A stretch of DNA of 38,896 bases, taken from the NCBI RefSeq assembly GCF_000337575.1, contig NZ_AOIM01000039.1, positions 70,131 through 109,026 on the forward strand, given 5' to 3'. Position numbers and translations under genes: made by a program. Numbering within the stretch: the first letter of the stretch is position 1; each line of letters starts with the position of its first letter. Source of the DNA: Natrialba hulunbeirensis JCM 10989. Lineage in GTDB: Archaea > Halobacteriota > Halobacteria > Halobacteriales > Natrialbaceae. Of this stretch, positions 7,927 to 35,032 are shown piece after piece. Below the pieces are notes generated by a model that saw nothing but the letters and a program-made list of their open reading frames with translations, did no database searches and was not told the DNA's origin.

Positions 7927-8874
7927 TTACGAATCGGCCGCGTCCGCCCGCTCACGAATCCGTTCCGCCTGTGCAATCAACGGCGCATCGATCATCTCCC
8001 CATCGACCTCGAAGACACCCCGTCCCTCACCGTCCGCCTCTCGCTTCGCCTCGAGTACAGCCGTCGCCCACTCGAGTTCCTCGGCTGTCGGCGTGAACGC
8101 CTCGTTGATCGGGGCGACTTGAGCGGGATGGATCGCCAACTTGCCGTCGTAGCCGAGTTGAATTGCGAACTCAGTTTCCTCGATAAGTCCGTCTTCGTCG
8201 CCGAAATCGGTGAAGACCGTATCGATCGCCTGGCAGTCGTGTGCGGCGGCCGCCACGACGACGCGCTCGCGTGCGTAGAGGACTTCCGTTCCCTCGTCGG
8301 TCCGCGTCGCGCCCAGATCCGCCGAGAGGTCTTCGGCACCGAACAGGAGGGCGTCGGTTTCGGGAACGGCCGCGATTTCCGGTGCTGCGAGCACGCCCCG
8401 TGCGTTTTCTATCAGTGCCAGGATGGGGATCTCGAGTGCGTGGGACTCGAGTTCCGCCGCAAGCGTGTGGACGTCATCCGCGGAGCCGGTTTTAGGGAGC
8501 ATGACGCTATCGAGGCGGAAGTCGGTTGGCGAGCTGGCGGTATCGGTGTCGGTGTCAGTGGCAGTGTTGGAGCCGGTGTCGGTATCAGTGTCAGTGTTGG
8601 TGCCGGTGTCGATATCGGTACCACCGCCCGCGATAACCGCAAGGTCGGCCGCCAGCTCGTTGACGGGGGCGTTCACCCGAACACAGACCTCACAGTCGGG
8701 ATCGAACCTCGGGTCAGTCAGAACTTCACGAACGGTTTCTCGTGCCGATTCTTTCTCGGTCGGTGCAACTGCATCTTCGAGGTCGAAGACGATGGTGTCA
8801 GCACCTGCGCTGGGTGCCTTGCGGAGCATATCCGGCTGGTCACCGGGTGTAAAGAGGATACTGCGTCGTACCAT
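7927..8874 (-). CDS. CitE-type HpcH/HpaI aldolase family acyl-CoA lyase
   Basis: The 315-residue protein belongs to the CitE-like CoA-ester lyase family (citryl-, malyl- or citramalyl-CoA lyases), Mg-dependent TIM-barrel enzymes that split a 3-hydroxyacyl-CoA. Visible motifs are RRSILFTPGDQPDM at the N-terminus, VFDLEDAVAP (residues 29-38, metal region), VRVNAP (65-70), LPKT, LIENARGVL with a metal-binding Glu, LFGAEDLSADLG, and KLAIHPAQV. Residues 86-117 are an Asp/Thr/Gly low-complexity insertion encoded by near-repeats. The start is ATG 8874 (MVRRSILF); longer frames to 9057 run into non-coding origin sequence. A MaoC-type hydratase that could be its pathway partner lies about 6 kb away (14881). 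The exact substrate is not determinable. Confidence 0.88.
   Translation of the reverse strand: MVRRSILFTPGDQPDMLRKAPSAGADTIVFDLEDAVAPTEKESARETVREVLTDPRFDPDCEVCVRVNAPVNELAADLAVIAGGGTDIDTGTNTDTDTDTGSNTATDTDTDTASSPTDFRLDSVMLPKTGSADDVHTLAAELESHALEIPILALIENARGVLAAPEIAAVPETDALLFGAEDLSADLGATRTDEGTEVLYARERVVVAAAAHDCQAIDTVFTDFGDEDGLIEETEFAIQLGYDGKLAIHPAQVAPINEAFTPTAEELEWATAVLEAKREADGEGRGVFEVDGEMIDAPLIAQAERIRERADAADS
8523..8622. repeat. In-frame GT-rich hexamer repeats inside the lyase gene
   Basis: Variants of GGTGTC, GGTATC and AGTGTC are repeated across this stretch (minus strand GACACC-type units). They encode alternating Asp-Thr with Gly, Asn and Ala, residues 85-117 of the CitE-type protein. The length is a multiple of three, so the reading frame is kept. 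Confidence 0.75.
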
Positions 8875-9053: not shown

Positions 9054-9076
9054 ACACCCCTCATTCAAAGTGAAAT
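9054..9076 (-). promoter_or_regulatory. Origin recognition box A
   Basis: On the minus strand the core reads TTTCACTTTGAATGAGGGG. It matches box B except for one base in the left half and the two bases before the G run. The G tail points toward the lyase gene. Confidence 0.75.
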
Positions 9077-9110
9077 TGGATGGGAGAGAACTGAATGGGT
9101 TGTGTGGCGG

Positions 9111-9133
9111 TTTTCACTCTGAATTGGGGGTGG
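9111..9133 (+). promoter_or_regulatory. Origin recognition box B
   Basis: The core is TTTCACTCTGAATTGGGGG followed by TGG. It is divergent from box A 35 bases away, so the two form a close inverted pair. Confidence 0.8.
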
Positions 9134-9163
9134 ACGATTGACGGACAGTGTCACTCTCGAGTC

Positions 9164-9366
9164 ATGGAGGAGGCTAAATACGAGACTCGAAAAGATCCGA
9201 CAGAGAGTAGGATAAGAGTGGGAAGAGGGAGAGTAGGACAAGATTGGAGAGAAGGAGGAAGTATAGGGTGGGAGTAAAAGCGGGGTAGAAGTAAGAGCAA
9301 CAGGCGTGAGCGAGGAGAAAACAGAGATGGAAAGCGAGTAAGAGAGTGAGTAAGAAAGAGTGGAAG
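9164..9366 (+). repeat. Purine-rich arm of the origin
   Basis: For about 200 bases the plus strand is overwhelmingly A and G (for example AAGAGGGAGAGTAGG and AGAGAGTGAGTAAGAAAGAG). This is unlike any coding region nearby, and it mirrors the pyrimidine-rich stretch at 9722-9980. Confidence 0.8.
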
Positions 9367-9403
9367 CGTCGAAATCCGACAGGCGAAACAGGATTTACCC
9401 CCA

Positions 9404-9428
9404 GGGACCCCTCATTCAGAGTGTATCC
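9404..9428 (-). promoter_or_regulatory. Origin recognition box C (left inner box)
   Basis: On the minus strand it reads ACACTCTGAATGAGGGGTCC. With box D it flanks the AT-rich core in inverted orientation, G tails outward. Confidence 0.8.
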
Positions 9429-9534
9429 TTTCTGTGGGAGGGTGGGGGTGGAGAGAGCGAGGGGGAGTTGCTGATCGCTTCGGGTCTCTGCCAACGTTTG
9501 GTATGAGTTTCTAGTATTCGGAATCTGTTGCTGG

Positions 9535-9625
9535 AACCACAACATTCAAACCATAACTAGAAACGGTTCTAGACTAGAATACATACTGAAGATTTGTTGT
9601 TGAATCGATAATCTACAGTGGAACC
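9535..9625. other. AT-rich centre of origin, candidate unwinding element
   Basis: This is the most AT-rich part of the origin. It contains the inverted repeat CTAGAA-ACGG-TTCTAG at 9557-9572, and GTTTCTAGT (9508-9516) paired with ACTAGAAAC (9556-9564). It sits between boxes C and D, where a duplex unwinding element is expected. Confidence 0.6.
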
Positions 9626-9706
9626 GCCGATGGTGTGTCAATGACGTGCCGATGACCTATCGGGGATAACAGTGAGGGATCGGTCGCTGGAGAGCCACCT
9701 CCCTCC

Positions 9707-9728
9707 AGCGGTACTAGTTGATACCGCT
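9707..9728. repeat. Short inverted repeat at the start of the pyrimidine arm
   Basis: AGCGGTA (9707-9713) and TACCGCT (9722-9728) form a perfect 7-bp stem around an 8-base loop beginning with CTAG. Confidence 0.6.
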
Positions 9729-9980
9729 CTTTCTCACGTCTCTTACCTCCTTCACTCACCCTTATTTTCCCTCCAATCTCCTCCATTCACTCTTCTCTCA
9801 CCCCTCACCATCATCACCCGCTCTCAGCTCACCCCTGTTATCTCCTCCATTCACTCTTCTCTCTCCCCTCTCCATATTCACCCGCTCTCAGCTCTTCTCT
9901 CACCACTCTCACTCGCTCTTCTCTCCCACTTACTTCTCTTCCCATCTCCCTCTCTTCTTCTCCCACCTCACCCCCTATTC
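9722..9980 (+). repeat. Pyrimidine-rich arm of the origin
   Basis: About 250 bases are nearly all C and T on the plus strand, the strand-reversed counterpart of 9164-9366. Because CT-rich triplets rarely make stops, it is open in the orc1 frame, which falsely extends that gene upstream. Confidence 0.8.
9777..9904 (+). repeat. Tandem duplication, 64-bp unit
   Basis: Copy 1 is 9777-9840 and copy 2 is 9841-9904. Both begin TCTCCTCCATTCACTCTTCT; the first 54 bases match with four differences and the last ten diverge. Confidence 0.85.
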
Positions 9981-9988
9981 ATCGCTGC

Positions 9989-10012
9989 CTTTCACTCTGA
10001 ATCAGGGGTGGG
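9989..10012 (+). promoter_or_regulatory. Origin recognition box D (right inner box)
   Basis: The core is TTTCACTCTGAATCAGGGG followed by TGGG. It is the inverted partner of box C and lies about 145 bases before the orc1 start. Confidence 0.8.
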
Positions 10013-10126
10013 CCTGTTCACCACTGATTCGTTCGTTCACATCTTGTATTTCAGCCGTTTCCAGCGCTACTGCAGTCAAATAGAGCCCAGTCGTGATTCA
10101 TTATCAGTCTGCATTCTTTCCCATGG

Positions 10127-10134
10127 TTTTATAA
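10127..10134 (+). promoter_or_regulatory. TATA-like box for orc1/cdc6
   Basis: TTTTATAATA begins at about 10127, 24-31 bases before the ATG at 10158. That spacing gives a leaderless transcript and supports this start. Confidence 0.65.
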
Positions 10135-10157
10135 TACCGGTCTTCCAGAATGGAAGC

Positions 10158-11450
10158 ATGGCTGATACGGCCGGTGGGGACCCGCTCTTCCAATCCCACG
10201 ATCCGATCTTCAATCGGAAGGAACTCCTCCACGTCGGGCACGTCCCCGATGAGGACCGGATCGTCGGTCGGGACAACGAAATCCAGTCCGTTGCCGCCGA
10301 AGTCGGCGCGATCACGCGCGGCGATCCACCGAACAACGTGATGATCTACGGCAAAACCGGAACCGGGAAGAGTCTCATCTCCCGCCACGTCGCCACGCGA
10401 GCCCAGGATGCTGCCAGCAGCAACGAAATCGACTGTGGCGTTCTCTACGTTGACTGCTCTGAAGCGAACACGGAAACGCGTGCGACCCGCCAACTCGCCC
10501 TGAGTCTCAAAGAACAGACCGCCTACCAGGACCACATCCCGCTTCGTGGCGTCGGGACCATGGAGTACTACCAGCACATCTGGCGTATTCTGGAGTCCTT
10601 CTTTGACGCCGTCATCGTCATTTTAGACGAAATCGACAAACTCGATAACAGTAATATCCTGATGCAACTCTCCCGCGCTCGCGAAGCGCGCAAGACGGAC
10701 GCCTACATCGGCGTCATCGGCATCAGTAACAAGGTCCAGTACCGCGAAACCTTAGACGAGCGCATCGACAGCAGCTTCGGCCACCGCGAACTGTTCTTCC
10801 ACCCCTACGATGCTTCCCAGCTTCGCGAAATCATGCGCAACCGCGAGGACGCCTTCCAGCCGGACGTACTCGAGGACGGAACGATCGAACTCTGTGCTGC
10901 ACTCGCGGCGAAGAAACACGGAGACGCACGCAAGGCGATCGAGATTCTGAAGGAAGCGGGCGAGCTGGCGCGGCGAACCGGGTCGGAGTCCGTCTCGGAG
11001 GAACACATCCAGCAGGCCCAGGAGGTAGCCGAGATCAACCGCATCGAGGAGTTGACCAGTGGAGCGACGGTCCACGCCAAACTCGCACTGTACTCGCTCG
11101 CGAGTCGCATCATCACTGGCGACCGCGAGACGTACAAGACCCGAGAGATCTACCAGCGCTACGTCGGTATCTGCGAACTGGTCGCAAACGATCCGATCAC
11201 GGAGAACGGACTCTATCGCCAACTCAAGGAACAGGCGTTCCTCGGCGTCATCGAGTCTGAAAAGACCGGCGGCGGCCGCTCACAGGGGAGTTACCTGCTT
11301 CATCGACTTGTGACGGACCCAAAGCACATCGTCAAGGCGGTCAAACGCGACTCCTCGCTCGAGGACCTACCGTCCTACGAGCAACTCGCAAATGGTGGCG
11401 ACTCCTCGCGAGAGCACGAGGTGGAGACGGATCTGTCTTCGTTCTCGTGA
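10158..11450 (+). CDS. orc1: Orc1/Cdc6 replication initiator ATPase
   Basis: This 430-residue initiator binds origin boxes and loads the MCM helicase. The AAA+ core shows the Walker A motif YGKTGTGKS, Walker B ILDEIDKL, sensor 1 in IGISNK, and sensor 2 Arg in KHGDARKAIEIL. The C-terminal winged-helix domain follows (about residues 310-400: YSLASRIITG to GRSQGSYLLHRL). The start MADTAGGDPLFQSHDPIF at 10158 has a TATA-like box at the right distance; the frame is open up to 9672 only because that stretch is pyrimidine-rich. Origin boxes lie both upstream and downstream, the usual arrangement in which an Orc protein recognises its own adjacent origin. The stop codon falls at the junction of two 23-bp tandem repeats (11426-11471). 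Confidence 0.95.
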   Translation: MADTAGGDPLFQSHDPIFNRKELLHVGHVPDEDRIVGRDNEIQSVAAEVGAITRGDPPNNVMIYGKTGTGKSLISRHVATRAQDAASSNEIDCGVLYVDCSEANTETRATRQLALSLKEQTAYQDHIPLRGVGTMEYYQHIWRILESFFDAVIVILDEIDKLDNSNILMQLSRAREARKTDAYIGVIGISNKVQYRETLDERIDSSFGHRELFFHPYDASQLREIMRNREDAFQPDVLEDGTIELCAALAAKKHGDARKAIEILKEAGELARRTGSESVSEEHIQQAQEVAEINRIEELTSGATVHAKLALYSLASRIITGDRETYKTREIYQRYVGICELVANDPITENGLYRQLKEQAFLGVIESEKTGGGRSQGSYLLHRLVTDPKHIVKAVKRDSSLEDLPSYEQLANGGDSSREHEVETDLSSFS

Positions 11451-11471
11451 CGGACCTGTCCTCGTTCTCGT
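11426..11471 (+). repeat. 23-bp tandem duplication spanning the orc1 stop
   Basis: GACGG-ATCTG-TCTTC-GTTCT-CGT (11426-11448) is followed directly by a second copy (11449-11471) with two differences. The orc1 stop TGA is at 11448-11450, at the junction. Confidence 0.8.
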
Positions 11472-11516
11472 AGTTTTTCGGTCACGCTTGTCTCGCACTG
11501 TCGTTCGTACTCGAGT

Positions 11517-11541
11517 ACAGTCTGAACGACGGGGGTGGGGG
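11517..11541 (+). promoter_or_regulatory. Degenerate origin recognition box F
   Basis: ACAGTCTGAACGACGGGGG keeps the CAGTCTGAA half and the G tail of box E but differs in the middle. It may be a decayed box. Confidence 0.4.
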
Positions 11542-11635
11542 AGAAACGTGGGGGGGTTGCTACACAGACTGTGTGAGCCGGTTGCTCCGTCGTGCGGTGT
11601 GGGGACGGTACAAATCGGTGAGTGTCTGTGTGACG

Positions 11636-11660
11636 CTTTCAGTCTGAATTGGGGGTCTGG
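11636..11660 (+). promoter_or_regulatory. Origin recognition box E, downstream of orc1
   Basis: CTTTCAGTCTGAATTGGGGG matches box B with a single C-to-G change in the left half. It lies 11 bases before the 30-bp tandem repeat. Confidence 0.7.
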
Positions 11661-11670
11661 GTTTGTGTCT

Positions 11671-11760
11671 GAGCCTGGGCGTAGGTCTGTGCCTGAGCCT
11701 GAGCCTGGGCGTAGGTCTGTGCCTGAGCCTGGGCCTGGGTGTAGGTCTGTGCCTGGGTGT
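11671..11760 (+). repeat. Three 30-bp tandem repeats
   Basis: Units 11671-11700 and 11701-11730 are identical and 11731-11760 differs at a few bases; all contain GTAGGTCTGTGCCTG. Partial CTGGGT/CTGAGCC units flank the array. It ends just before the stop of the second glutamate dehydrogenase gene. Confidence 0.9.
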
Positions 11761-11766
11761 GGATAA

Positions 11767-13044
11767 TTATGGCCAGAGCCCGCGTGCCTCGTGTGCTTCT
11801 GCGATGCGCTGTAGTGCGACGATGTACGCCGCATCGCGCCAGGTCACGTCGTTGCGTCCGTACTCGTCACAGACCGCGCCCCAGGCGCGGAGCATCTCCG
11901 TTTCGAGTTCCTCGTGGACGCGTTCTAAACTCCAGGCGCGGCGGTTGATGTCCTGGAGCCACTCGAAGTACGAGACGGTGACGCCGCCCGCGTTCGCGAG
12001 AATGTCCGGGATAACCGGAATGTCTCGGTTCTCGAAGATCTGGTCGGCCGTCGAGGTCGTTGGACCGTTCGCCCCCTCGACGATCATGTCGGCGTTGACG
12101 TTGCGCGCGTTATCGCCGGTGAGTACGTTTCCAATCGCGGCGGGGATGAGCACGTCGACGTCGAGTTCGAGCAGTTCCGCGTTGGTGAGCGACTGCGGAG
12201 CATTGTAGCCCGAGACCATGCCGGGTGTTTCGTCGTGATCTTCCACGTCGTTCGTATCGAGGCCGTCAGGGTCGTAAATCGCGCCGTCGATGTCGGAGAC
12301 GGCAACGATGGAGGCACCGCGTTCGTCCAGATAGCGGGCGGCGTTTGCGCCAACGCTACCGAACCCTTGTACGGCAACAGTCGTTTCGTCGAGATTCCAG
12401 TCGTAGTAGTCGACCGCTTCCGCAGTGATGATACCAACACTCCGGCCAGGCGACTTTTCACGGCCCTGGGAGCCACCGATAACTGGCGGCTTCCCGGTCA
12501 CGACGCCCGGCGTGGTTTCACCTTCCTGCATCGAGTAGGCGTCCATGAACCAGGCCATCGTCTCGGGGTCGGTCCCCATATCCGGTGCCGGGATGTCTTT
12601 CATCGGGCCGATAACGGGTCGAAGCTCCTCGGCGAACCGACGGGTGAGCCGCTCTTTCTCGTCCGTGCTGAGATCCTTCGGGTCAACGACGACGCCACCT
12701 TTCGCGCCGCCGAAGGGGAGATCCATCACGGCACACTTCCAGGTCATCCACATCGAGAGACCGACACACTCCTCCTCGTTGACGGCAGGGTGATAGCGCA
12801 GCCCTCCCTTGTAGGGGCCACGAACGCTGTCGTGGTGGGCGCGGTAGCCGGTGAACATCTCGCGCGTGCCGTCGTCGCGTTCGAGTGGAATCGTAACTCG
12901 GTAGACGCTGGTCGGGTGACGAAGCCGCTCGACGATGCCCTCGTCGACATCCAGGTGGGCGGCCGCGCGCTCGAGTTGGCGACGGGCTGTTTCGACTGCG
13001 CTTTCCTCTTCGTCGGGTTCCGTTGTCGGTTCGGCTGCGGTCAT
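11767..13044 (-). CDS. gdhA: Glutamate dehydrogenase, second copy (GdhA-type)
   Basis: This 425-residue Glu/Leu/Phe/Val dehydrogenase has the same fold and length as GdhB. The substrate region shows [30 protein letters not shown] with the catalytic Lys, and the Rossmann loop [15 protein letters not shown]. The C-terminal block [30 protein letters not shown] is nearly the same as in GdhB. It has an extra acidic N-terminus of about 20 residues ([19 protein letters not shown]). Haloarchaea often keep one copy for glutamate synthesis with NADPH and another for catabolism with NAD; which is which cannot be read here, and the gene symbol is by family resemblance only. It lies 55 bases from a 3 x 30-bp repeat and is divergent from the aldehyde dehydrogenase gene. 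Confidence 0.9.
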
Positions 13045-34735: not shown

Positions 34736-35032
34736 TTTACTACATTCCTGAGCGACTGTGCCGGCTGTCGCGAGCGATCTATAGACCGTCTTGAGGTCGG
34801 CCTGTATTCACCGCTGGGCAGTGTCGAACCACAAGCAAATATTCGCTTCTGGAAACGACGAACTGTAAACATGAATGGCTCATTATGTGTGTTGCCACAC
34901 CGAATCAGTCATGGGTGTTATCATTCGAAATTCAATGAAACGACTATATTCAGTGGTAATACCCCAGTTTCGTTCGAAACAACCCGACACCCTTATTAAA
35001 ATTCGACAGTAAGTGCAGGTGGTACTTTCCCA
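34736..35032. other. Upstream region of the second PadR gene
   Basis: This is an AT-richer stretch with no gene. It contains a TATA-like TATTAAAA (34994-35001) and a GGTGG ribosome-binding-like motif (35018-35022) before the ATG at 35033. Confidence 0.5.

Follow-up and report, generated by a model that had tools for sequence, protein, structure and literature searches.

Whether the intergenic DNA around the orc1/cdc6 gene of Natrialba hulunbeirensis JCM 10989 forms a replication origin, and if so of which kind, was examined in a 38.9 kb stretch of its genome (38,896 nucleotides, hereafter the window). The gene was originally predicted to be accompanied by six origin boxes. Its product has the AAA+, lid, and winged-helix domains of an Orc protein, exceeds the 300 aa expected of a full-length initiator, and is related in sequence to Aeropyrum and Sulfolobus initiators of solved structure. 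The features of the locus are listed in Table 1.

Table 1 Features of the orc locus in the window. Coordinates of boxes 1 to 6 are those of the 19-mer cores.
Feature	Position	Strand	Sequence	Remarks
HpcH/HpaI-type lyase gene, left cassette border	7927..8874	-		Pfam PF03328; adjoins gdhB where orc is absent
Box 1	9057..9075	-	TTTCACTTTGAATGAGGGG	Matrix score 34.6; kept in relatives
Box 2	9112..9130	+	TTTCACTCTGAATTGGGGG	Matrix score 32.8
Box 3, left member of inner inverted pair	9408..9426	-	ATACACTCTGAATGAGGGG	Matrix score 26.3; innermost minus box in relatives
G-rich purine arm, just inside box 3	9434..9467	+		Purine excess at left inner box in 20/35 loci
AT-rich stretch between inner inverted boxes, proposed unwinding element	9471..9640			Second AT peak of the window
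Pyrimidine arm matching the purine arm, just inside box 4	9950..9976	- (purine-rich on minus strand)		20/35 loci
Box 4, right member of inner inverted pair	9990..10008	+	TTTCACTCTGAATCAGGGG	Matrix score 36.3
Half-box without G-string	10102..10113	+	TATCAGTCTGCA	56 bases before start codon; about 33 Natrialbaceae orthologs
TATA-like element of orc promoter	10128..10136	+	TTTATAATA	Kept beside half-box
orc1/cdc6 initiator gene, 430 aa	10158..11450	+		Pfam Cdc6_lid, Cdc6_C, AAA_16; TIGR02928, E 4e-116; 2V1U, E 4e-54
Box 5, 3' of orc, most degenerate	11515..11533	+	core CAGTCTGAACGACGGGGG	Matrix score 26.0; present in other Natrialba
Box 6, 3' of orc	11637..11655	+	TTTCAGTCTGAATTGGGGG	Matrix score 32.9
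gdhB, right cassette border	11767..13044	-		NF041398 above its cutoff; synteny

A position matrix was derived from 189 boxes of relatives, with the window and its nearest relative excluded, and the whole window was scanned with it. Exactly six sites scored between 26.0 and 36.3; every other site scored 6 or lower, and the top score in 40 shuffles was 10.6. With an independent 19-mer pattern allowing up to three mismatches, five boxes were matched in the window against 0.02 expected. All six predicted sequences were thus present, within 4 bases of where they had been placed, and their division into four upstream and two downstream of the initiator gene was correct. The consensus among relatives was TTTCACTCTGAACGAGGGGTG, with C or G as the sixth base, and boxes with a G-string are repeated in the intergenic DNA beside orc. 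A low-complexity tandem repeat (GTCTGTGCCTGAGCCTGGGCGTAG type) was also observed at 11653-11760, immediately after box 6.

The intergenic region is repetitive with a strong purine or pyrimidine bias, and the boxes might be explained as chance or low-complexity likenesses within purine-rich DNA. However, shuffles yielded nothing comparable, and the boxes are kept across genera although the flanking DNA diverges. The matrix scan, together with the linkage to Orc in 61 genomes described below, refutes this explanation, to which we assign a negligible chance.

In the linkage survey, 61 genomes were searched for the box at one mismatch or fewer, with the reversed pattern as a control. The box was found in all 15 genomes carrying this type of Orc, nearly every site being located at the orc locus, and the reversed pattern gave no site in the 61 genomes. 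Genomes with neither the window-type Orc nor the sister Orc described below had no box, save one lone site in genome G025. These results indicate that the box sequence is tied to the Orc family. Scattering of the boxes without linkage to orc, the outcome that would speak against an origin, was looked for in the same 61 genomes; the boxes tracked Orc, and the reading as an origin stands. In viral contigs, one box match was obtained; it fell within a coding region, on an AT-rich contig that looks unrelated, and was taken as chance. The GGA box of the sister group had no match there. The lone box in G025 (L210:3217; G025:C1:752216), a genome lacking the window-type Orc, is about 0.8 kb away from maoC and may be a relic, since maoC commonly neighbours the origin.

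The arrangement of the boxes was then compared among the window and 34 ortholog loci. Each locus had two to six upstream boxes, always including an inner inverted pair of a minus and then a plus box (35/35), and at least one downstream box (35/35), with all 44 downstream boxes on the plus strand; about 35 Natrialbaceae loci have the same design. The gene order gdh2 - lyase - boxes - orc - box - gdhB is also kept across Natrialbaceae. In six genomes of the same family without orc, the gap between gdhB and the lyase gene was 53-340 bp and contained no box. Because gdhB lies beside the lyase gene in these orc-less genomes, free of boxes, the boxes and the orc gene appear to have been gained or lost as one unit. 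On the gdh2 and gdhB trees, the presence of orc was clustered (3 changes versus 7.5-9.2 with shuffled labels), and no relic of orc was found in the wider gdhB-lyase gaps of genomes G028 and G016. In Natronorubrum bangense, the origin region was observed twice, on the chromosome and on a plasmid of 828 kb (L063 and L064), with boxes and genes arranged alike; this is either a real duplication or an assembly artefact.

The third and fourth boxes had been described as inverted around an AT-rich core. Indeed, they form an inner inverted pair with a spacing of 563 bp and bracket AT-rich DNA, and in most relatives the AT maximum likewise falls between the inner boxes. The top AT stretch of the window was located at 34820-35030 (61% over 150 bases), far from every box. 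Over 150 bases, purine content and pyrimidine content both reach their window-wide maximum in this intergenic region, the most pyrimidine-rich DNA being at 9735-9979. Across loci, the DNA was purine-rich inside the left inner box and pyrimidine-rich inside the right one in 20 of 35 loci each, versus a background of 8% (threshold, 0.6 or more); the 35 loci are mutually related and hence are not independent cases. These arms resemble the G-rich inverted repeat of Haloarcula hispanica oriC1, which is an enhancer located inside its boxes (PMC3936714).

We then asked how the locus relates to the main origin. In the genome of the window, oriC1 was found on contig C34 with the classic inverted pair TCTCCAGTTGAAACGAAGGGGTG, and the locus studied here does not have the classic CCAGTTGAAACGAAGGGG-type box and conserved neighbourhood of oriC1. 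In N. magadii, the published position of the main origin oriC1 is 1.96 Mb (PMC3403918); the ortholog of the window origin maps to 2.38 Mb. Given the different contig and the separate positions in N. magadii, the locus is regarded as a secondary origin and not as oriC1. The two share inverted G-string boxes about AT-rich DNA with the G-strings facing outwards, but differ in box sequence, Orc, contig, and gene neighbourhood. The oriC1-type Orc gene (G000:C34:77704-79131; also in three other genomes) matched the window Orc in two blocks about 100-300 bases apart, corresponding to an insertion relative to the window Orc.

In 2012, Wu et al. reported on 15 genomes including N. magadii and described Orc families with their own box families and, in some members, boxes on both sides of the orc gene (PMC3528665). 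Their origins and the present one have in common an orc gene beside inverted G-string boxes about AT-rich DNA and a box that follows the Orc family. Their paper names oriC1, oriCa, and oriCb only, and the family of the window is probably among the unnamed predicted origins, as N. magadii, a member of that 15-genome set, has this origin. The kind of origin is already known, and the locus is one specificity group within the 2012 framework. No description of the box sequence itself was found in a literature search that covered few subscription papers. In H. hispanica oriC2-cdc6E, a downstream cluster, oriC2D, restrains firing, probably by titrating Cdc6E (PMC3936714). The window-type loci similarly have boxes 3' of the orc gene, but only one or two are conserved, whereas oriC2D contains 11.

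Taken together, these findings suggest, with a probability of roughly 0.85, that the locus is a secondary, Orc-specific chromosomal origin of Natrialbaceae that is carried as a cassette consisting of the boxes, the AT-rich element, orc, and the downstream box. Such a cassette could be competent as an origin but normally dormant and silent in the wild type, which would be a sub-case of the origin reading and not exclusive of it. Some haloarchaeal origins of such anatomy are dormant or without plasmid-replication activity (PMC4595724, PMC3528665), and one dormant origin with inverted boxes is Haloferax mediterranei oriC4-cdc6H (PMC4595724). In the genome of the window, oriC1 on contig C34 is joined by boxes of at least one other Orc family. 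GC skew, analysed along 800 kb of the N. magadii chromosome, gave no signal at the orthologous locus, nor at oriC1 there. However, the full architecture has been retained vertically for a long time in many genera, in contrast to H. mediterranei oriC4, which is recent and lies in a variable context (PMC4595724); we therefore consider dormancy possible but somewhat unlikely. Comparison of the published Natrinema J7 plasmid-replication primers (PMC5350488) with the Natrinema orthologs of the cassette gave no convincing match.

The Orc proteins of the window type showed 88% or higher identity across Natrialbaceae with a single box consensus, whereas the sister Orc group showed about 53% identity with a box altered mainly at one core base. 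These values support the earlier suggestion of a distinct specificity group. Its separateness from Haloferax is less than had been suggested, since the sister box is present in Haloferax gibbonsii. The sister group comprises this species, plasmids, and contig C34 of Natrialba sp. SSL1. Its box, TTTCACTCTGGACGAGGGGTG, is near-identical to that of the window, and its promoter also has a half-box (TACACTCTBG; TACACTCT) at about -60. The group differs in that the core GAA is changed to GGA or TGA and in that gdhB was not found as a neighbour. Sister-type sites (TTTCACTCTGGAC) were present in genomes G001, G020, and G052, and were next to the sister Orc in G001 and G020. In the recognition helix, N350, G351, L352, and Q355 of the window Orc are replaced by H, R, V, and L in the sister Orcs. 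As about 80 positions differ by group between the GAA and GGA Orcs, these changes are suggestive only as candidate specificity determinants. In Natrialba sp. SSL1 (L212; G001:C34), both box groups were observed, the GAA box at one origin and the GGA box at a sister origin whose orc frame has one TAG stop.

The list of six boxes was correct as such, but a shortened seventh copy in the orc promoter had been overlooked. When the upstream DNA was searched for shared words with the boxes masked, one outstanding element, ATCAGTCTG, was obtained in 25 of 27 loci. This element corresponds to the box core minus the G-string (TATCAGTCTGMA). In about 33 Natrialbaceae orthologs it is located at -55/-56 from the start codon and immediately precedes the TATA-like element, and in two Haloferacales orthologs the equivalent position is occupied by CACTCTGA. 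Nearly all of the 44 cores without a G-string in these loci lay in the orc promoter region. Many loci of Natrinema and Natronococcus, and some others (L057:4867 is one example), have another degenerate core, TTCAGTCTGCAT with CGG after it, at about -134 from the orc start and 78-79 bases before the -56 half-box; it was not seen in the window.

The relation extended to other Orc families. In a third family, with full boxes of TTACATMCGCGANGGGGGTG, the promoter element was TTACATCCGCG in 26 of 29 loci, and the three misses are attributable to a contig start that cuts the locus and leaves the promoter outside the sequence. Among 39 Orc loci examined without preselection of the core, 17 had in the promoter a core that agreed with the full boxes of the locus, versus 0.30 expected from shuffles. 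As evidence against self-regulation by such half-boxes, the GGAAAC-type Orc families retain the G-string at this site, and several Orc loci had no site in the promoter. The site agrees with the Orc family rather than with a general promoter element, and it is therefore most simply read as a place where each Orc binds the promoter of its own gene. The shortened box copy thus suggests self-regulation of the initiator, as predicted from the sequence. In E. coli, dnaA is autoregulated, the initiator having a site in its own promoter. Likewise, Orc1-2 of Sulfolobus acts as a regulator and binds to the promoter of its own gene (PMC9738581). As in these cases, an initiator-type protein here has a predicted site in front of the gene that encodes it; in the present case, this site is a half-box that lacks the G-string, and the promoter is that of a replication initiator. 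More generally, haloarchaeal initiators may commonly control their own genes by means of a half-box with their respective specificity just upstream of TATA. With the G-string absent or weakened, as in at least three families, such a site would sense free initiator at low affinity and would be the archaeal equivalent of DnaA autoregulation; we give this generalization an even chance. No description of Orc autoregulation via half-boxes in haloarchaea was found in the literature search, which covered few subscription papers, and the promoter half-box rule seems to be undescribed.

The original statement that the box occurs nowhere else held for the window in the matrix scan; genome-wide, one further full box was found (L120:4488-4506; G000:C41:10987-11005), upstream of the promoter of a gene for a 131-aa ribbon-helix-helix protein. 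This box, located 70-90 bases before the start, was present in four of seven Natrialba genomes and not in other genera, and it was the only recurrent site outside the orc locus; it is a possible Orc target outside the origin. Identification of the gene as CdrL was rejected, as it showed only a weak CdrS match (E 0.0014), is away from cdrS-ftsZ2, and is without the zinc-ribbon domain. The Orc might, then, be mainly a transcription regulator at the locus with the boxes as operator sites, as the half-boxes in orc promoters, this full box, and the precedent of Sulfolobus Orc1-2 (PMC9738581) would allow. Yet the boxes of a genome lie almost all at the orc locus and are not spread across promoters, and they form inverted pairs with G-strings about AT-rich DNA; we regard this explanation as highly improbable and retain the origin reading.

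Beside the observed anatomy, conservation, and joint presence or absence of Orc and box, we infer the following course of binding, firing, and regulation. On the TTTCACTCTGAAYNRGGGGTG boxes, the winged helix of the Orc would contact the CASTCTGAA core and the AAA+ domain the G-string, as predicted from the solved relatives and the linkage. By analogy with known archaeal origins, Orc bound at the inner inverted pair would open the AT-rich stretch at 9471-9640 and load the helicase. The downstream boxes may take up further Orc and dampen firing by titration, for which H. hispanica oriC2 is the precedent. The half-box at -56, with the missing G-string side towards TATA, would be a weaker site at which excess Orc represses or otherwise controls orc transcription; judging by its orientation, bound Orc would repress by occluding the TATA side.

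With GAA and GGA boxes occurring together in one Natrialba strain, the two groups represent a near-minimal pair for how Orc proteins discriminate between origins. As to how archaeal cells with multiple origins and multiple initiators hold each initiator at the right level, the family-specific half-box offers a prediction about a single site for genetically tractable haloarchaea.
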